Shown here: piece by piece, positions 1-12,921 of the stretch
Numbering within the stretch: position 1 is the stretch's first letter
Layout of the letters: each line of letters starts with the position of its first letter
Assembly: GCF_002104995.1 (NCBI RefSeq)
Contig: NW_024468256.1
Span: 516,001-580,000 of the forward strand
Length of the DNA stretch: 64,000 nt
Origin: Linderina pennispora
Lineage: Eukaryota > Kickxellomycota > Kickxellomycetes > Kickxellales > Kickxellaceae
Direction: 5' to 3'
Notes under the pieces: generated by a model
Database searches by the model: none
What the model saw: only the letters and a program-made list of their open reading frames with translations
What the model was told of the DNA's origin: nothing
Translations under genes and position numbers: made by a program

Positions 1-1448
1 GTGATGCTTGACAGGGATGTAGTGTACGAGATTTAGTACATAAGCTCGAGGATGCTGTTGCAGAATTCGTTCGTGAAGGAATGCCTGCATCACAGCCGAT
101 TCTGCAGACACGAACACACGAACATCCTTGCTTGGTGGAGGGCTTGGCATGAAGGCGATAACATTGGCAACAAATCTTGGAATGGGCGTCACTAGAGCAG
201 GTGCTCCATGTCCGAAATCTGCGTCATACATTCTGAATCTGGTTTGGTTTGACACAAGCAAGTTTGCTCTGTGCGAGGCTGCGTATGCCATGGGCCGAGT
301 GAAGCCGGTTGGATGCAAATTAATCAAGTCAATGAACCCAGCAATGAGAGGGGCATCGAGGTCATCGACTGCTCGACGTACTGACTCGACGACTGTCGCT
401 AGGGACTCTATAGTTGTCGGCATTTCGACCTGCTCGAGACTGTTCAGGATGGACTGCGAGGTTAACGCGTTTCCCGAGTAGTCTATATCCGCCATGCCAA
501 TGCGGTGGCGAATATCACAGATAAGGGCAATGCCTTGCTCAGTCTCTCGGTTGAGCAGCCTGCCAAACATAGTCTGGGTAGATTTTCTGCGCCTGTGCCA
601 TCGTCTTGGCAATAAGCGCTGTAAGCAGATCATTGTCAGAAACACGCATACCGCTGGAGACATGTCTCAGAACCTGCTGGCGCTAGCACATCGAGCTTTT
701 GGCGAGTAGCAAGGAATGTATGCCCATCAGCACTAGCCACATTCATTGCCTTGTCCAGGATCCTTCCACGCGAGTTTGGAGACAGCCAGGCCAGAAACGT
801 CGCAGGTATAGTCGGTGTTGTATACAGCTTTTGAATGAAGTCGCATTGCTCGCGGCGCTCCTCGGACAAGTGACTATCAATCTCTGAGCGGTCGAAGCAG
901 GGAGAAGGGACGTCAGCCTCAGGATTTCTTGTCAGTTCAGCCCAGCGGTTCACAAAACCAAAGAATCCTATCCCATCAACGACATAGTGTGGGATGTTGA
1001 CAAGCAGGATCGCGCCGCTGTTGTTCTTTAGTCTCACGACATGCACATTCAGCAGCTTCAGGCTCCCATCTGCTCCAGCGCGCGCAATTGGGCCGACAGT
1101 GGCCACCCCGCTTGGCCACGTGTCGGCGCTGAACTGTGCTGCTTTTATTGCGCTGTAGCTGATATTGTCGACAGCTGTCTCGAGGTACTCGGGCATGTTC
1201 AAATCGTCCTTATCAACCACCACCTTGGCTTGGCCATGGCCATCCATGCGGATATATCCTGCAAGTATCGGGTACTTTGCCAGTGTCTTGTAGAAAGCAG
1301 TGCGCAAAGCGTCGGAGTCCATAAAGTCAGGGCTTCCATCGGAGTTCTCATAAAAGAATATGTAAGGGATATTACTGAACGATGTTTGCGTGTCCAGGAC
1401 TGAGAGCGGGAATCCTTGAGACTCGACAGTACTTAAAAAGCCGTCCAT
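1..1448 (-). CDS. BAHD/HXXXD-family acyltransferase (frame-broken, 3' end outside window)
   Basis: Transferase-family (PF02458-type) enzyme expected to move an acyl group from acyl-CoA to an alcohol or amine. The start is the ATG at 1448. The N-terminal half carries HYVVDG (about 975-992), the HxxxD catalytic motif, within a typical NIPHYVVDGIGF context. The C-terminal half carries DADFGHG, a variant of the family DFGWG motif, ending near VHYIPVKHH at the window edge. The roughly 480 codons match family length. Two single-base shifts interrupt the frame, near 665 (after APAGSE, before SSGMRVSDND) and near 580 (after AQKIY, before MFGRLLNRE). Both are cured by deleting one base, so this is probably an intact gene with sequence errors; a pseudogene remains possible. 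Substrate unknown; fungal relatives include trichothecene 3-O-acetyltransferase-like proteins. Confidence 0.75.
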
Positions 1449-1722
1449 GAGAGTATACAGGTTAGCAAAGTAGTAGGGAGAGATATGCAGAAAGCAGCTT
1501 GCGCATCCAAGGGCGGTTGCTGCTTTATAAATGTCAGGCAGGTGCTGGAAGGCATGGCCCAGCAAACAGTCGTCTTGCTTACGGCAACCACGGCGATACA
1601 CGGGAATCCCCTTGGAAAATTTGCTCGCAGCCAAGAAATCAACGATGCCAGTCAGCTTAATGTCTACAGCGTTTCTTGCATTAAGCAGCATAAATCGGCA
1701 CATTTGATTTTTAGCTAACAAG
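1449..1722. other. Intergenic, upstream of the acyltransferase
   Basis: No convincing gene. The minus-strand frame of the acyltransferase stays open upstream of 1448, but its composition is not protein-like and no conserved block is visible. Confidence 0.5.
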
Positions 1723-2960
1723 CTATACCCGCTTGGCCCGCTTCGACACCCTTGTAGGCAGAGCGGTTGCAGCACCAGTAGCAGAGGCTGGATGATTTGC
1801 TGGCGTGGCAGCCCTCGGCACGGGGCGCCTACGACGCGCCTTGGGCTTGGTAGCAGCCTTGGCTGCACTTTGCATATGGGCCGTCTCTGCCGGGCGCTCT
1901 GGCGATATTGGTCGTTTGCGCAAGGCATGGCCGCCGACAATGACGGCCGCAATGGCAGTGTCTTCCACAGCCGGCGCCTCAGCCTTGCGGTTTGCGGGCA
2001 GGCGGCCAGGTCTGCGTGTACTCTGAGGCGGCTTCGACACAGGTGCTTTCAGCGGAGCGGCCTGGTGTCCTCGATCCGATCTCTGATGCTGTTGCGTGAC
2101 GATGCCGACAGTCTGGTCACTGCTCGGCACACGACTGACAGACTGAGACGGAGCGGATGCTCCTGGCTTTCTCTGTCGGGGATGGTGCATGGCGAGGGGT
2201 GCTGGTAGTCGACAGGCTTCTGGCTGAGGCTAGGGATTGAAGGCTTGCGAGATGGCGCCCTAAGGTTTGCTGTTGACAAAAGGATACTCTCGTCTTCGAC
2301 CACAGGCTGACTTAGCGCGCGAAGCTCCACCTGCTCGGTAGTATCCGCATGCTCCGTCCCGCTGTCTACTCTCTCTCCAAGCTTGGTGGCTGGCGGTATA
2401 GTGGTGATGTCTGCAACGTGAGACTTTGGGTTTCCAGTATTGCCCTCGCTAGCAGCATCGGCAGGAATGCTGGAGGCATCGATTGTCTCCCAGTCCTGAT
2501 CCAGCGGTACCGGGCGAGGTGGGTAGGCATGCTTTGCTGCGGGTCACTGGCGGCATAGCGTCCACGAGCAGAACCGAAGCTGAAAATACCCTTGCGAGTC
2601 CTGGCCGCTGTGGGCGTTGCGCTACGCAGTGCTGGTGTTGAAAGTGGTGGATGCATACTGCCCAATGTATTCACTGAGAAAAATGTCCGAGTGAAGATGA
2701 AGGGGCAGCAGCAGAGTCCGCCGGTCTTGACGCGTTGTTGCCAGCAAGCCGCTTTGGTGGGGCACGTGGCAGGCTCGCGTGATTGCCGCCATCCTCCTCC
2801 TGTGCGCTAAGATTGGACGGTGATGGCGGCTGCACATGGCCACTAGTCATAGGCACCAGCAGCAATGATGAGGTCAACGCTTCAGGACACACCACAATGC
2901 ACGCTGTGATCGTGCTGAGGACAGTGGGTGGCCAGGTCCCTCTACCACTTGACATACCGA
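1723..2960 (-). CDS. Ser/Pro/basic low-complexity protein with GG-x-ALRKR C-terminal motif (frame-broken)
   Basis: Not recognised as a known family. Overlapping minus-strand frames each look coding over a limited span. In order they contain PPKRLAGNNASRPADSAAAP, SEYIGQYASTTFN, ARTRKGIFSFGSARGRY, PLDQDWETIDASSIPAD, RKPSIPSLSQKPVDYQHP, and a basic tail that includes VGGHALRKRPISPERP and ends RVSKRAKRV. Successive single-base shifts would join them. The GG-x-ALRKR motif is shared with the C-terminus of the neighbouring ORF (3149-4552), and the underlying DNA is similar (around 1905-1935 and 3180-3215), so the two tails are probably duplicates. The N-terminus is not resolved; a GTATGT at about 2960 could be a donor site. 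It may be a real gene damaged by sequence errors or a decayed paralogue. Confidence 0.45.
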
Positions 2961-3148
2961 ACAATCCGTTCAGGAGAAAATTCTCACTGTACTCGCCCTG
3001 GACATTGGACACTAGTTCACTAGACTCTCTGGTTACTTCCAGGAGATAGGATGGAGAAAGAGAAAAACTATATTGACATTGGAATATTAATTACAGCCGG
3101 CGCCGCACACTCGCAAATCGCGAGGGGGCAGCCTGGCCTGCGGACACT

Positions 3149-4552
3149 CTAGGGCGCCGCTTTCTTTGGGCGGACAGGTGGCACCTGCCGCTTGCGCAAG
3201 GCATAGCCGCCGACATTGGTGGCTGCCTGCGCAGGTGGGGTCGGGCTCGCCGGCACCCAGCCTTGCCACGACGACCGCCGGCGCCGCAGCGAGGCAGCCG
3301 TCTGGCGACGGCGCCGACGGTCCTGCAGCCTATGAATGCGGTCCCGGCGGCTAATGATCTCTTCGATGCTGGTGTTGGAAATGTCCAACACCTCCGCCTC
3401 AGGATCGGGTGCCGGCGCTTCGGTTGGCTTCGCACCAAAATTCAGACCGAGGGACCGGAACCGCCTGCGCTCATGCACCGGTGTGTCAAAGTCGAGGCGC
3501 GAAAACGCTGCGTTGCTCTTCTTCGGCGTTGCGTCTGGCTTCTCCGGTGTCGCTGTGGGGGCTGCGCCAGTGTCGGCCGCCAAGTCGCTCGTGTTGTCCA
3601 TATTGGTTGCACTGATTCGGGCCTGCAGCTCGGCCTGCTCGCGCAAAAGAACCTCGGATGCCGACAGACGCTTACGCGGGTCCCTGCGAGGACGTTTCGC
3701 CGATGGATCGACGGCCTCCGATGTCGAGCTGCGGCTGCCGCGGTCCCTGGGCGCCGGTCGCTTTACACCCTTGCGCGGAGGCGTTACTGCGTCCCAGTTT
3801 TTGTCGAGCTCGTCCAGTGCCTTCTCACTGTCCTCATCGTCTTCACGGTCCTCGTCAATGTCGTTCAGCACCGATCCTTGGATCTGCTTGACCTTCTCCA
3901 CCCCCAGCTGCACTGCTTCCGCTAGCCCTAGTGCTGGAGTAATCGCCTGCGCAATGCTGGATTCGGGCAGCGGCACAGGGTTCACGCCGTCATCAATCTC
4001 CTCCATGGGTTTCTCCTCGACTGGTGACTCCTTCTTCGCAGACTTTTTGTTGAAGAACTGGGGCACATCCTCGCCAAGTGCCGCAGCCATTGCTGCGATC
4101 GAAGCGTCAATGTCCTCCAGGGAATAGGACTCTTCCTTTGCCTCCTCTGGAGATGACGGGATCGTGACCCGGCGGTCCTTCCGCAGCTTGCGGATGCGTC
4201 TCACCGGGCTACCCAAAGGTCCGCTGGATGGTGCTCCAAGTGGCGACGGCGCCACAGCTACACTTGCCCGCAGCATCTGCCGTGGCGACCCTGGCAGCGG
4301 GGACGCACCGAGTGGTGATGCTGGCAGCGGCGAGGCTGGCGGTGACTCGTCAGCTGTTAGCACATTCTTCGCCAAAACATCGCTGTCCATGGTTGATCTG
4401 CGTCTGCGCTCAGAGGCGCGCAAGCTGCGGCGCCGGCGCTGACGGCCGTTCAAGGTGGCAGGGGAAGTGATCATGCTCGGGCTGGCCGACGGAGCATCGG
4501 CTGCCAGATCGCTGGAACTGACAGTGGAGCTGGCGGGACTCTCTTCAGTCAC
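3149..4552 (-). CDS. Ser/Pro/Arg-rich basic protein; possibly the C-terminal half of the Ki-67-like protein
   Basis: An open frame of about 467 codons rich in Ser, Pro, Arg and Glu, with no globular domain recognised. Visible elements are basic clusters (NGRQRRRRSLRASERRRR), a possible RVxF-like DRRVTI, an acidic stretch (NDIDEDREDDEDSE), Arg-rich helices (ISRRDRIHRLQDRRRRRQ) and the terminal GGYALRKRQVPPVRPKK. The first in-frame ATG is at 4474, yet the frame stays open and protein-like upstream of it, into the end of the Ki-67-like gene that stops at 4618. Either this is a separate gene starting at 4474 only 143 nt after its neighbour, or it is the continuation of the Ki-67-like protein beyond a frame error. 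The composition suits a chromatin or nucleolar protein; function is not established. Confidence 0.6.
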   Translation of the reverse strand: MTEESPASSTVSSSDLAADAPSASPSMITSPATLNGRQRRRRSLRASERRRRSTMDSDVLAKNVLTADESPPASPLPASPLGASPLPGSPRQMLRASVAVAPSPLGAPSSGPLGSPVRRIRKLRKDRRVTIPSSPEEAKEESYSLEDIDASIAAMAAALGEDVPQFFNKKSAKKESPVEEKPMEEIDDGVNPVPLPESSIAQAITPALGLAEAVQLGVEKVKQIQGSVLNDIDEDREDDEDSEKALDELDKNWDAVTPPRKGVKRPAPRDRGSRSSTSEAVDPSAKRPRRDPRKRLSASEVLLREQAELQARISATNMDNTSDLAADTGAAPTATPEKPDATPKKSNAAFSRLDFDTPVHERRRFRSLGLNFGAKPTEAPAPDPEAEVLDISNTSIEEIISRRDRIHRLQDRRRRRQTAASLRRRRSSWQGWVPASPTPPAQAATNVGGYALRKRQVPPVRPKKAAP

Positions 4553-4617
4553 AGAGGCAATAGCTGAGAGATACTGATGCGTTATGCGTCTGCGTGACAG
4601 CCTAGGGTGCCAGCAGA

Positions 4618-6689
4618 CTATCGATACCCGCTGAATCCGGCTGAGTTGACAGTGGCGAATTGGGCGAAGCTGCCGATCAGCGACGTGTTGCCGGTGTAAG
4701 CCCCAGGCGACCCACGGAGCAACACATGGCTGCCGAAAACGCCTGGGTGCGGGGTCGAGATCTGCACAAACTCCGGGGTCTGACGCAGAATGCTGGCTGC
4801 ACCGGGGGCCATCTGCATCGGCGTTCCGCGGCGCAGCGGGGTTGCTGGCGGTTCATGGGTGTCAAACAGCTCGGGAGACAGCGGGGGTCCAAATCTGACG
4901 CTTTTGCGCGGGGGCGTGCCCTCGTCATCTGTCAGATGGTGCCGCTTCCTAGTCAGCAACCCCTGCGATGCCCGGCCATTACTGGCTGCTACAGGGGCTG
5001 GCTGTTCGTCCTCGCTCTCTGACTCTGGTTCGGGCTCCGTCGGCACCTCGTCACTGCTGTCGCCTTCGGTGGTCTGGCCATTCGACACAGCCATCGGCCC
5101 AGTGCACGGTGGTAGATACGACAGGGACTCTGGACAGAGTCTGCGAGCTGCTGCGAACGGTCCTCCGCTTGACCATGTGCGCTTTAGTGGTGATGTCATG
5201 CTTGGCATAGCGCTGCGCCGATGCATTTCTGCCTGGGGCTGCTGCTTCTCGCCTGACACGCTCACCAATTTAGTAGCAGCATCAACCGGGTCCAGTGCTT
5301 TGTCCTTCTCCTGCTCCTTGCGCTGGCTACGCAACTGCATCGTCATCCGCTTCCTTTGTAGGGTGGGTGATTTGGTGAAGGCTGACTCAGCATTGGCTCC
5401 AATCGTCACGCGCGACGTCTTATCCTCAGAACCGTACGCTGAAGCAGTAGACTTCATGGGGAGTGTCGAAGCGGATGAACTGCTTTGGGCCGGTGTAATC
5501 AATTCCTGCGGCTGAGATAGCATCACAGGATGCACGTCGACACCAGGGTCTCTGGAGTTCTTAAGCCCGTCCATAAACTGCGGCACAGATGTCCGACGCT
5601 GCAAAAGGCATGCTGCAGACTCTTTGCCCTCGCTTTGTGCAGTACCATTCTCGAGGAGCCGAGCGCGTTTCCGGCCTGATACCGGTGTGGTGAGCTGTGG
5701 ACGGCGAGATCCCACATTGGACCCCTTTATGATCTGGGCCGCTTCATCCGCCCGCCGCTCATCTCCATCTCCATCGTCATGTGGTGTCGAAGGCACAGAG
5801 CGCTTCCGCGAGGTGCCCTCTCCAAGATCATCAAACAAATCTGCTGGCGGTGACTCTTCAGTAAGATCAGCCTCGCTACCAACCGCGTCAGCACCTTGCC
5901 GGCTGCGTGGTCCGCTGGGCTTCCGTGGCTGATCGTCGGACTCGGAGTAGAACAGGTTCCATCTGTCGATCTTTGCTTTAATGTCCGCCGCCCGCAGCGC
6001 ACATCTCACTAGTCTTGCCCGCTGCTGTGTCCGTCCCTCCGAAAGAGGCATCGGCTTTGCACGCACTGTGGGAGTCGTCGGACTCGCGCTCTCCGGGCCA
6101 TCAGCGCGCCGGTGCTGGCGTGGTACGGGCTCTGTTTGTGGAGTTTGTGGAAGCGATCCGATGTCAATGCGGGTACCGGGCGGAGTCGCTGTTTCGGTAT
6201 AGCTCATGGTTGGTTTTTCATATCGCAGAGATCGACCGGCGATTGTGATGATATCGCCATATCGAAGAACGCGTTGCTGGCCAAGTGCAAGAAATTGCCC
6301 ACCGACAATCGTTTTGTTTGAACTCAGGTTGGTCAGGGTAACCTACGTAGAGAGAACATGAATTAGTAGGAATGCGTTGTGCATTTCAAAAATGTACTGC
6401 GCATTTCAACTTACCTTCCTGCCAACAACCCGGATAGCACAATGCTCCTTTGACACCTTAAGGTTTGGGATACGGATGTTACATGTATCTTGCCTATAAA
6501 TAAAGCCACCGGTGTTGTTGAGCACATGCACACAAATGAGTTTCTGAATTCGGCTTTATCTCAGCACCTCTGCATTCGCTATAAACCTTACCTTCCAATG
6601 GTCACCCGTGTCTCGGTAAGGGGGTAGACTTTGCCGTCCCCACCAGAGGGCTTGATAATAACGATAAAGCCGTATAGAGGCACACCCAT
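4618..6689 (-). CDS. Ki-67-like protein: N-terminal FHA domain plus Ki-67/Repo-Man-type PP1-docking module
   Basis: Three exons: 6689-6592, 6493-6415 and 6342-4618 (introns of 98 and 72 nt with GTAAGG/GTAAGT donors and TAG acceptors), giving 633 residues. Residues about 1-103 form an FHA domain: GFIVIIKPSGGDGKVYPL, then TIGRQDTCNIRIPNLKVSKE followed by HC (the GR and SxxH phosphopeptide-binding signature), NLSSNKTIVGG in place of the usual NG, and YGDIITIAGRSLRYE. The middle is low-complexity Ser/Pro/basic. Residues about 539-570 carry KSVRFGPPLSPELFD followed by PPATPLRRGTP, which matches the RVxF plus PELFD..PPxTPLRRG layout through which animal Ki-67 and Repo-Man bind PP1. In animals Ki-67 coats mitotic chromosomes and organises the perinucleolar region. 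Divergent from Ubc12; the adjacent downstream ORF may be its continuation. Confidence 0.8.
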
Positions 6690-7110: not shown

Positions 7111-7752
7111 ATGCTCAAGATTTGGTCAATGAAGAAGGACCAGGCTGCGGCCGAGAAGAAGAAGCCCAAGGTCACGGCTGCGCACATTCGTCTTCAGAAG
7201 GACATGGGCGAGCTCCAGCTTGACCGGAACACGACAATGTCATTCCCGGACCCTAAGGACCGGCTCAACTTTGTTGTTGCCTACAGGCCCCCTACGGGTA
7301 TGTATATGCACCATGCATTTTATTGCAATGCGTGCAGCACACGTACAGAGCAGGTCGTACTAAATAGACTTTCCCCTTATTAATTAATTTCCTCTGTAGG
7401 CATCTATAGAGGCGGGGAGTTCAAGTTCACATTCGCTGTCAGCCAGAACTACCCACATGAGGCGCCCAAGGTCCTGTGCACACAAAAAATCTACCACCCG
7501 AACATTGACACCGAAGGACACGTCTGCCTCAACATCCTGCGCGAGGACTGGAAGCCGGTGCTGAACATCAAGTCTATCATTTTTGGCCTGCAGATGCTAT
7601 TCCTGGCACCTAACCCTGAGGACCCGCTGAACAAGGAGGCGGCCGAGCACATGTTTAACAACCGGGGGGACTTTGAGATGGCAGTCTCGCGCACCATGAA
7701 CGGCGGGTTCCTCCACAATATCCACTACGACAACGTACACTACCGCGACTAA
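7111..7752 (+). CDS. UBC12: NEDD8-conjugating enzyme E2 Ubc12 (UBE2M)
   Basis: E2 that carries NEDD8/Rub1 from its E1 to cullins. Exons 7111-7297 and 7400-7752 (102-nt intron, GTATGT donor and GTAG acceptor) encode 179 residues. The N-terminal extension [11 protein letters not shown] resembles the Ubc12-specific peptide that docks on the NEDD8 E1, which supports this start; GCCACC precedes the ATG. The UBC fold follows: [36 protein letters not shown], and the catalytic cysteine in [15 protein letters not shown]. It ends NVHYRD. Length and motifs are typical. It should act in the cytosol and nucleus in cullin-RING ligase activation. Confidence 0.95.
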
Positions 7753-8220: not shown

Positions 8221-9679
8221 ATGACCACGGATTTATATTTCGTCCGCGGAGCCGCCCCTACTGCGACTCCCAGGGTCGTGAGAGCAGCTGGCCAAACACC
8301 ACGCTCGAGGGTCCCCGTAGGCAAACTAGCGCTGTCTATGAAGCGGCCAGTTGATGTGAACAGCGCCGGCCGCCTGCATTTCCCAGAGGCCAAGCGGCGG
8401 TTGACCTCTGCGATTGCCTCTGCATCTAGAGTGGGCGCGAGTAGCCAAACGTCTGAAGGGACAAAGGACTTGTTTGTTGACGAAATTGTCAGCGTGCCTG
8501 TCCGCAAGCCAACGCAGCCCACACCACTGATTCCTCGCACACGCAACCGCTTGTTCGAGCCCTCCACACCAGCAACTGATGCAACACCGGCACAAAATGG
8601 AAGCGTGAGCAGACGGCGTCGCAGTTCCTATACTCGCCATCGTGCGTCGGGGATGGGGGACGACGGCGACGACAGCCGGTCCAGACGCAAGTCAGCCCGC
8701 AAATCAACACTGGGCCGTCGCCGTTCCACATTTTCGATGCGCGGAAAGCGCGCTTCTTCGATTGGTGGTGGATTCAAGGCGCTTCCGCACGACTCGGTTG
8801 ACTCAGCTGACCTGTACCGGCATATCTCGCCTGAGCTTCCCGAGCCCATTCGTCTGCGGCAGCTTCTTGCCTGGTGCTCAATGCGCCTGGCACCAAAGAC
8901 CCCGTGGCTAGAGGATCTGCCGGAGCCTGCACAAAATTTGCTGAGCAACGCATTAAAGGAGGCAGTCGACGAAGTGCATTCCGCGTTTCAGAAGGGTGAG
9001 ATCGTGACGTCGTGGTACCACAGACCAGTCAATACAGATGATATGGCTGATCAAGGCGATGTAGAGCTGCAGCCACATCCAGAGAATATCTCCAATCAGA
9101 GAGCGAAAGAAGAGCTGCTGGCGCGGATTGCAAAGCTCAAGGCGGAGGATGACTCGTGGGTCGAGGAGCGGAATCGTGCCTGTGCAGAACACGCGGAAGC
9201 AATCGATCGGCTACCCTCGTCAGTCCGCTCGCTTTCGCCATCAACAGCCAGATCTGCTAGCACAAAACAGCAGCCCGTCATTGAGCCTATCAATCGAGTC
9301 AGCACGACCACAGACTGGGCAGCAGTGGACCAGGTACCAGAAGCAGCAAAATACGTTGAGGAGTCCTCTACCGATGTTATAAAGAGCGAAATTGTGGCAG
9401 CTGAGGAGCAGATGGACCGGGCGACAAAAGAAATTGAATTGCAGCTAGACGCGTTCCATATCGACATGCATCCGGTACAAGGAGCTGCATAAGGAGGCGG
9501 CCGAGCAATGTGCCAGGCTGTCAGCTAACTTGAGCTTCTCGATGGCGCAGCGGCGAACCAAAGCACAGGTCGTGGCATCTAAACCCCGCCCAGTATCGGC
9601 GAATCCCGACGATGAGGAGGCTGATCCAACACGCGACCTGCTCCGAGCGCTGTCAGCGGCATTGTGTCGAGCAAATTGA
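8221..9679 (+). CDS. DSN1: Kinetochore MIND/Mis12-complex subunit Dsn1/Mis13
   Basis: Structural kinetochore protein that links the inner kinetochore to Ndc80 and KNL1. The diagnostic block is at residues about 170-225: basic RRRSTFSMRGKRASSIGGGF (Aurora B-type Ser sites and the autoinhibitory basic motif), then ALPHDSV and LYRHISPELPEPIRLRQLL, followed by AWC. The C-terminal half is helical/coiled-coil (KEELLARIAKLKAEDDSWVE; VAAEEQMDRATKEIELQLDA). One base shift near 9471 ends the frame early (stop at 9492); in the next frame ELHKEAAEQCARLSANLSF continues to DPTRDLLRALSAALCRAN, the conserved Mis13 tail. With one base removed the gene has exactly 486 codons. The start could be further upstream (8160). 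Confidence 0.88.
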
Positions 9680-11323: not shown

Positions 11324-12020
11324 GGTAAGCGACATGTAAGAAGAGTATAGAAATGTACAGGGGTGGAGAAAGAAGAAATGTAAGGACAGTAATGCACAGC
11401 TCCAGCTGTCATCCTTTTTCAGCGTGAGCGACAGATGCCTCACATCCTTCGTGAATGCACGCCCATTGATGCGCCCAATTTAGACTGGGGACACCTTCCG
11501 CCACGCGTGACTGGGAAGGAATGTCGACAGCTGGCCCCAGAGGCCAAAACGACAATGCAGGTTCCGAAAGCCAGACAGCGGACAACCGACGCCTTAAATT
11601 CTAACGAAGATGGGTGGGTATTCCAGTCTCTTGAAATCAGCTGAATGGCTGGCAGCCGTGGCAAGAGCCACAGAATAGCAATTTATGCATGAGCTTTTTC
11701 TACTTGTCCTCCATGCCACAAGGCGGCCTGGCCATGTTCTCCCCATGTGCCATTGTCGGCCACCTCGTTTGTTCTCCAGATGAAGGCTCTATGGAAAAAG
11801 TAGTCGAAGACAGCATCGACTTATCCTCAGAGATTCCCCAATCGGCAACTCTAGCGTGTGCTCTAGGTGCGGATACCCGAGATCAGCAAATGTAATTACT
11901 GCTTCTGTGGACTGTAACCTGCCCTAGTCCAGACTGCGCCTAGAAATGTCCAACAAACACGTTTTCTTTTTCTGCATTCCATGGCTCTGTTTCTGATTAT
12001 TTCCTTTCTGCACTTTACCA
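11324..12020. other. Intergenic between the F-box-like gene and the esterase
   Basis: About 700 nt between divergent genes. Short open frames exist but none shows a domain or sustained coding character. A pyrimidine-rich leader (TTTCTTTTTCTGC, TTTCCTTTCTGC) precedes the esterase ATG. Confidence 0.5.
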
Positions 12021-12921
12021 ATGTCGAGATATTCCGGGCAGCTCTACGACACAATTGTCTGTTTCGGGGACAGCTTGACGCAGCACGGCTGGGACGTCAC
12101 AAAGCATGGCTGGGTCGCACAACTGTCGCAGGCATACCTGCGGCGACTTGATGTGGTGAACCGCGGATTCAGCGGATTCAATAGCAAGTGGGTGCGGGTC
12201 TTGTTTGACCAGCTCCTGCCAGTAAACCCAGCAATCAACGATCCCAACAAACCGCAGGATGCCCCCAAGACACCGGCCAACGAGCCTCAGGAAGCCGAGC
12301 CAGACATGCCTTCTGTGGCAGATTCAACGTGCAGCACACGCAGGTCTAAGCTCCGCCTATTCACAATCCTGCTGGGTGCCAATGACGCCCAGCTTTCCCC
12401 ACTCAAGCAACATGTCCCATTGGACGAGTTCCAGGCGAATATCGAGTACTTTGTGCGGTCGCTGACCTCGCCTACCTCACAGTTCTATTCGCCCGATACG
12501 CGCATTATCCTGATCACACCACCGCCAGTAGGCGAAAAGCTGTGGAAGGAGCGGCTGGCCAACGATGGGATCGATGGGCTTGATCGGCGTAATGACAATA
12601 CCAAGAAATATGCTGACGCGGTCAAGGCTGTGGGCGAAAGGTTTTCGGTCCCATGCATTGATCTGTGGACGGCTATTGAGGACAAGGTCAGCGAAGTAAG
12701 GTTGCGTAGCAACGGACAAACTTGAGTATGGTGGGTATGACACATACTCGTGGGATGGGGTACACCTTAATGCCAATGGAAACGATCTGCTGTTTGGGCT
12801 TTTGATGGCCGCGATCAGGGAGAACTTCCCAGAGCTTGATCCAGATAGCATGCCGTTTGTGGTCCCTGACCATCGGTCATTCACTGGCAGTGAGGATTTC
12901 GGCCAGCTCTTCCGGCTGTAA
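12021..12921 (+). CDS. IAH1: SGNH/GDSL esterase, isoamyl acetate-hydrolysing type (IAH1-like)
   Basis: Serine esterase of the GDSL family; yeast Iah1 hydrolyses acetate esters such as isoamyl acetate. Start MSRYSGQLYDTIVCFGDSLTQHGW, with the nucleophile Ser in GDSL near residue 18. NRGFSGFNSKW (block II Gly), LLGANDAQ (block III Asn) and ITPPPVGE follow. The catalytic Asp/His are in DTYSWDGVHLNANG. A single-base shift near 12712 ends the first frame at 12725 (after LRSNGQT); the next frame gives LEYGGYDTYSWDGVHLN and ends FGQLFRL. Removing one base restores exactly 300 codons. The insert between block II and III (residues about 75-105) is Pro/Glu-rich. Confidence 0.88.

Follow-up and report, generated by a model that had tools for sequence, protein, structure and literature searches.

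The window analysed here, a 64,000-nt stretch of the genome of Linderina pennispora (phylum Kickxellomycota), carries on its minus strand a gene of three deposited exons that starts with the ATG at 6689 and encodes an FHA domain followed by a PP1-docking module (Table 1). Both introns run from GT to AG and split the FHA domain. Their removal gives a product of 633 aa that is 100% identical, over its full length, to the NCBI protein DL89DRAFT_172086 of Linderina pennispora (P0001). This exact agreement bears out the two-intron splicing proposed in a preliminary description of the locus, except that the interval 6415-6493, put forward there as an intron for RNA-seq, is exon 2. The motifs quoted in that description, namely IKPSGGDGKVYPL, GRQDTCNIRI, VSKEHC, NLSSN, GDIITIAGRSLRYE and KSVRFGPPLSPELFD...PPATPLRRG, were all found in the product. 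No Rfam match was obtained in the 64-kb window. On the other side of the gene start, a ubiquitin-conjugating-enzyme gene (exon at 7387-7752), possibly related to UBC12, is followed by the gene of the outer-kinetochore subunit MIS13/Dsn1, which is separated from the first codon of the Ki-67/bridgin-like gene by about 1.5 kb. As regards the assembly (G000) in general, several gene hits occur twice with identical or nearly identical scores, for instance on C17/C112, C24/C44, C122/C212 and C140/C212, mostly on one long and one short contig, as if these were second haplotypes or duplicated ends.

Table 1. Positions of the features of the Ki-67/bridgin-like gene and of adjacent genes in the window.
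Feature	Position	Strand	Remarks
Exon 1	6592..6689	-	start codon and first part of FHA domain; product identical to deposited protein
Intron 1	6494..6591	-	98 nt, GTAAGG...TATAG; splice implied by identity to deposited protein
Exon 2	6415..6493	-	central part of FHA domain (VSKEHC)
Intron 2	6343..6414	-	72 nt, GTAAGT...CGTAG
Exon 3 as deposited	4618..6342	-	FHA end, long linker, PP1 module, stop TAG 4620-4618
Acidic stretch DSSDEVPTEPEPESESEDEQ	5002..5061	-	residues 487-506, N-terminal to module
PP1-docking module RKSVRFGPPLSPELFDTHEPPATPLRRGTP	4819..4908	-	residues 538-567; RVxF-type KSVRF, SPELFD, KiR-like stretch
ORF B, probable gene continuation in another frame	3152..4606	-	485 codons, contains DIDASIAAMAAALGEDVP and RRRRRQTAASLRRRRSSWQGW; tblastn of relatives
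Further C-terminal piece (AKHAYPPRPVPLDQDWETIDAS)	2052..2543	-	HMM of relatives, E 1.3e-15
Possible basic C-terminal tail	1726..2229	-	GGHALRK, TRVSKRAKRV-stop; pI 12.0; short motif matches only
Transferase-family frame	637-1470	-	PF02458, E 3e-16 over frame 637-2048; directly downstream of long gene
Ubiquitin-conjugating enzyme exon	7387-7752	+	PF00179, E 1.1e-34
MIS13/Dsn1 gene, outer-kinetochore subunit	8221-9489	+	PF08202, E 9.2e-34
GDSL lipase/acylhydrolase exon	12018-12725	+	PF13472, E 4.7e-18

Both Pfam profiles named in the preliminary description matched the spliced protein above their curated cut-offs: FHA (PF00498) at residues 29-93 with E 2.7e-13 and PP1_bind (PF15276) at residues 538-580 with E 3.1e-10. 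Among solved structures, the FHA domain was best matched by that of human Ki-67 (2aff and 1r21; E 7e-13 and 8e-13, 51.5 bits), the runner-up being the FHA domain of a bacterial GGDEF protein (36 bits, E 3e-8). Reciprocally, the human Ki-67 FHA domain scored 50.8 bits on the spliced Linderina protein and 27.4 on the runner-up frame. The genome gave 16 FHA hits, this locus included, and the reciprocal comparison set consisted of the open frames of 60 or more residues in the 13 stretches holding the 15 others; since these frames were unspliced, the score would be too low for any rival FHA domain that introns interrupt. When the whole genome was searched in six frames with the human Ki-67 FHA domain, two other loci were listed and the Ki-67-like locus was not, probably because the two introns split its FHA domain. 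The profile, the structural match and the reciprocal scoring all agree on an FHA domain of Ki-67 type, which is how the domain had been read at the outset.

The PP1_bind match was the single one in a six-frame search of the whole Linderina genome. Comparison of the whole protein with the PDB retrieved the PP1-docking peptides of Repo-Man (5ioh, E 7e-4) and Ki-67 (5j28, E 1.5e-3), and a 100-aa piece retrieved the same two entries at E 4e-5 and 9e-5, these being the module's only PDB matches with an E-value below 0.5. The predicted RVxF PP1-binding motif is present as KSVRFG and aligns to both peptides. The PF15276 match, together with the alignment to 5ioh and 5j28, upholds the earlier proposal of a Ki-67/Repo-Man PP1 module and points to a predicted dock of that type. 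The published KiR-SLiM consensus, FDxxLP(P/A)N(T/S)PL(R/K)(R/K)Gx(T/S)P (PMC5005033), is not strictly followed by FDTHEPPATPLRRGTP, in which the KiR-like stretch reads FDxxxPPxTPLRRGTP and departs at three points.

Among the matches listed for the 8000 candidates with the most shared words were 30 proteins, 28 of them named Coemansia, one Linderina and one other. PP1_bind is listed for all 30 and FHA for 13, some of the records being partial. The module pattern was fitted by 31 of the 33 proteins scanned, outside it being P0014, which lists PP1_bind, and P0033, which is not a family member; the scanned proteins are not independent, since nearly all come from Coemansia and several are near-copies. 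V-R-F-G-P and the PP pair are invariant in the 31 fitting proteins. As for the three departures from the KiR consensus, Leu is replaced by Ala in 30/31 (by Glu in Linderina), Asn gives way to Ser or Ala in 31/31, and the last TP is preceded by one residue fewer. The stretch VPTEPEPES in the acidic region is mostly common to the relatives, as judged from the alignment to P0002 and from the relatives' consensus. The long Kickxellales records measure 1225-1927 aa, and the last 100 residues have a pI of 11.4-12.0 in all ten relatives examined (P0012 among them being labelled partial). The part C-terminal to the module has a pI below 7 in eight of the ten, yet is basic in Linderina ORF B.

Two kinds of putative regulatory position within the module deserve separate treatment. 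In animals, Aurora B phosphorylates the residue between V and F of the RVxF motif (PMC5005033); this residue is Arg in every one of the 31 module-fitting proteins. A Ser directly precedes the Val in 28 of them, 26 reading RKS, and it is our guess that this Ser could be a displaced replacement for the Aurora-B site. The three Cdk1 sites of Repo-Man, S400, T412 and T419, have their equivalents in S548-P, T560-P and T566-P, and are well kept in the set (LSP in 30/31, the first TP in 30/31 with SP in one, GTP in 30/31). Should PP1 binding be shown, the Linderina module would separate kept Cdk sites from an absent Aurora-B site.

Ki-67 repeats (PF08065) were not detected at E 1 in the deposited protein, in two downstream frames or in six relatives, nor in a whole-genome search, where the control was also silent, so that this last result proves nothing alone; further convincing Pfam domains were absent from the Linderina protein, the downstream frames and the relatives searched. 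As no Ki-67 repeats were detected and the module departs from the strict KiR consensus, the protein is filed under the Ki-67/bridgin family and not as a strict Ki-67. Its sequence supports membership of that family, with the two domains in one fungal protein. Searches with the module only (53 candidates) and with a Coemansia FHA domain only (152 candidates) returned Kickxellales, one further member and the FHA/transporter protein P0033; as the protein search sees only relatives sharing exact five-residue words, its silence outside Kickxellales says little.

A dock of this kind calls for a fitting phosphatase. Arg20, which stacks on Phe81 and pairs with Glu77, makes PP1-gamma bind Ki-67 and Repo-Man more tightly than PP1-alpha does, and Arg20, E77 and F81 are named as the basis of the PP1 selectivity of Ki-67 and Repo-Man (PMC5005033). 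The Linderina PP1 (G000:C146; 291 residues from one frame, beginning VRGSRPGK, the preceding exon not having been located) aligns without gaps to PP1-gamma as complexed with Ki-67 and Repo-Man, its best PDB match being 5inb/5j28; position 20 is Arg, and FEYGGF is retained with E77 and F81. The next best match to it in the genome is 67% identical.

With these elements at hand, we consider it likely that this protein represents the Ki-67/bridgin family in Kickxellomycota and is a mitotic scaffold, long and with few folded regions, that recruits PP1. By analogy it is probably a scaffold of the mitotic chromosome or kinetochore; PP1 binding, phospho-control, location and role are all inferred from Ki-67, Repo-Man and bridgin. 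The FHA head (residues 9-107) would read phosphothreonine on a mitotic partner, while the module (residues 538-567) would dock the genome's PP1 through KSVRF, SPELFD and the KiR-like stretch, and a basic C-terminal region like that of the long relatives would hold the protein on chromatin. Phosphorylation of S548-P, T560-P and T566-P by Cdk1 may keep PP1 off until anaphase, whereupon dephosphorylation of the three sites would deliver PP1 to chromosomes or kinetochores and reverse mitotic phosphorylation there. Between these two locations we lean slightly towards the kinetochore over the chromosome surface, given that CENP-C was found, no clear CENP-T was seen in the genome and Dsn1/MIS13 is a neighbour.

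The foremost alternative is that the protein is chiefly a bridgin. It would then act as a kinetochore linker: its FHA head and linker region would serve its recruitment by the outer kinetochore, its basic tail would tie the outer kinetochore to centromeric chromatin, and PP1 docking would be secondary. Bridgin is the functionally studied fungal homologue with an identical order of parts (PMC7794384); it is located at kinetochores, and in Cryptococcus it is recruited by the outer kinetochore, bridgin being characterised by recruitment through the KMN network. The Linderina genome holds a CENP-C C-terminal domain (65.7 bits), and the CENP-T model gave five genome hits, of which the two opened were histone H4; CENP-C without a clear CENP-T fits the basidiomycete pattern, in which bridgin occurs with few other linkers. 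The Dsn1/MIS13 gene at 1.5 kb could be counted on the same side, but gene neighbourhood in fungi is often meaningless. However, the Linderina dock lies near the Ki-67/Repo-Man form, unlike the site of bridgin, which is termed 'unconventional'. The absences of CENP-T and CENP-I, moreover, weigh little, the search having been made exon by exon and that for CENP-I having no working positive control; the genome search for CENP-I was empty with a silent control, which alone proves nothing. We regard a mainly bridgin-like protein as a credible outcome that nevertheless falls somewhat short of an even chance.

A protein acting like animal Ki-67 would instead coat mitotic chromosomes, organise their periphery and, at mitotic exit, supply chromatin with PP1. 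In favour of this, the solved structure closest to the FHA domain is that of Ki-67, which together with Repo-Man also gives the best match of the module; the Linderina PP1 keeps Arg20, Glu77 and Phe81, and the C-terminus is basic in all ten relatives examined. Against this stand the undetected Ki-67 repeats (deposited protein, two downstream frames, six relatives) and the position at kinetochores of the fungal family member that has been studied (PMC7794384). The domain of the FHA partner NIFK was also absent from the genome search, though with a silent control, so that this alone proves nothing. We hold such a role to be possible and put it forward tentatively. A scaffold that recruits PP1, at either location, remains our preferred reading.

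The extent of the gene bears on both the proposed scaffold and the next alternative. ORF B matches the parts of the relatives that follow their modules with up to 141 bits, and nine of ten relatives surpass the highest score (47 bits) among 200 locally shuffled controls, P0003 (28.5) remaining below. Its 485 open codons compare with a maximum of 328 in 500 base-shuffled copies. In the frame 2543-2052, all ten relatives exceed the best of 200 shuffles (30.8), while at 1726-2051 none of the ten rises above the shuffled maximum, this last piece being recognised only by two short motifs, GGHALRK and, ahead of the stop, TRxSKRxKR. The middle region 3149-2543 gave no recognisable match with the HMM of the relatives, and no second copy of the locus was found in the assembly. 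It can be gathered from these matches that the gene probably extends past 4618, so that the deposited protein would be the front part of a longer gene, its model cut short by frame breaks.

The frame is interrupted at three places (about 4720-4600, 3150-2543 and 2300-2050), and stop codons stand in frame at 4618 and at 3149. Near 4602, what reads SLLQP-R-x-TRR in the relatives runs as SLLAP in one frame and as RLSRRR in the next, and the change of frame amounts to a one-base difference in a C run (CCC) beside the in-frame stop of the other frame. The breaks lack good splice signals, the best candidates scoring 0.1 to 2.1 in a simple ad hoc scheme in which the two real introns reach 8.6 and 14.0, and on these scores we rejected the possibility that exon 3 is spliced to the downstream frames across a conventional intron. 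Assembly slips, recent decay or frameshifting are possible causes, and the breaks leave the basic tail uncertain in Linderina itself. In the same region, the intervals 3093-3226 and 1892-2030 of the minus strand contain partial repeats in opposite order (59 nt at 73% and 64 nt at 70%), the 59-nt one encoding GGYALRKR and GGHALRKR at its two places; they are possibly a rearranged partial duplication of the 3' end of the gene.

One could accordingly argue for decay or truncation of the Linderina gene, with only the FHA domain and the PP1 module being made and the downstream frames being remnants. The three discontinuities with their poor splice signals, the two in-frame stops, the unmatched middle region and a last piece that does not rise above shuffles would all be expected in that case. 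ORF B, however, is open for longer than in all 500 base shuffles and still matches the relatives, so any loss would be very recent, and the single-base difference in the C run near 4602 can equally well be an assembly slip. We therefore judge decay unlikely, without treating it as negligible, and retain a longer scaffold gene as the working model.

That Kickxellales acquired an animal Ki-67 gene horizontally could be suspected from the close resemblance of both domains to the animal protein and from the occurrence of the pair only in Kickxellales and one further protein in the five-residue-word search, but it is disfavoured by the published distribution of homologues across Basidiomycota, basal ascomycetes, other fungal phyla and Amoebozoa (PMC7794384, PMC9252888) and appears very improbable. 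The least credible explanation of all is an unrelated protein whose FHA domain is accompanied by a PP1 motif of chance or convergent origin. FHA is a common domain, with 16 hits in this genome, and the short RVxF motif turns up often, but the FHA domain and Ki-67 are matched best in both directions, and the module, which matches over 30 residues, occurs once in the genome and recurs in 31 of the 33 scanned proteins; on these grounds we reject the explanation.

The preliminary description had further claimed that a protein with both domains in an early-diverging fungus would push the PP1-recruiting mitotic-exit scaffold back to before the animal-fungal split, and had allowed that the same pair, if already known to be widespread in fungi under another name, would cost the finding its novelty but not its identity. 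The two-domain identity stands; the scaffold claim itself was largely anticipated. Ki-67 is described from animals in one review (PMC8354752). Sridhar et al. (2021, PMC7794384) reported bridgin, a protein with a human-Ki67-like FHA domain, from Basidiomycota, basal ascomycetes and lineages outside fungi, and identified Ki67 as the homologue in metazoans; a 2022 review adds other fungal phyla and Amoebozoa (PMC9252888). At NCBI, 'antigen identified by monoclonal antibody Ki-67' is already the name of 11 of the 30 listed proteins. With bridgin published and these names in use, a Ki-67 relative in a fungus is not new; the novelty that persists lies in the near-canonical dock, as no published description of a near-canonical KiR-SLiM in a fungus, with a matching PP1, was found in the literature searched.

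Taken together, the sequences suggest that the Ki-67-type mitotic-exit device predates the animal-fungal split. A more specific proposal, on which we are nearly evenly divided but lean to doubt, is that the Kickxellomycota protein is of ancestral type, combining bridgin architecture with the Ki-67/Repo-Man module, an Arg20-type PP1 and three Cdk sites. Were it true, the Cdk-gated PP1 holoenzyme of mitotic exit would predate that split, the dock would have disappeared or changed in the described bridgins, and switching by Aurora B within the RVxF motif would be a later animal addition. As a proliferation marker, Ki-67 ranks among the best known. The near-canonical dock with an Arg-keeping PP1 renders the age and original job of the mitotic-exit phosphatase testable with peptides, in binding assays that do not require the fungus to be genetically tractable. 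The PP1 surface concerned is stated to be used by Ki-67 and Repo-Man only (PMC5005033); if binding were shown, that use would reach beyond animals.

Among the matches listed, the Linderina protein is most similar to the Coemansia proteins named after Ki-67, with which it shares family, order of parts and module; several of these are deposited as longer, continuous proteins, whereas the deposited Linderina model stops after the module. With bridgin (Bgi1) of Cryptococcus neoformans it shares the fungal origin, the FHA head, a long middle without recognised domains and, as seen in the relatives, a basic end, the length of bridgin being 1295 aa vs 1225-1927 aa for the long Kickxellales records. 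The central region of bridgin is unstructured and acidic in C. neoformans (PMC7794384). Bridgin differs in having 13 repeat motifs of its own and a putative PP1 site termed 'unconventional', in contrast to the near-canonical Linderina module; PP1 is in the table of proteins recovered with Bgi1, where other kinetochore proteins could have brought it (PMC7794384). Ki-67 (MKI67) resembles the Linderina protein in the N-terminal FHA domain, the module of RVxF-SPELFD-KiR type and the basic C-terminus, the last as seen in the relatives and being leucine/arginine-rich and DNA-binding in Ki-67, whereas Linderina shows no detected Ki-67 repeats, has Arg for the Aurora-B Ser and lacks the Asn of the KiR stretch. 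A 22-aa conserved-domain motif is reported to occur in all Ki-67 homologues (PMC4841783). Repo-Man (CDCA2), whose homology with Ki-67 is confined to the PP1 module (PMC5005033), is set apart by the FHA domain of the Linderina protein and is alike in the PP1 module, where the equivalents of S400, T412 and T419 are kept in Linderina.
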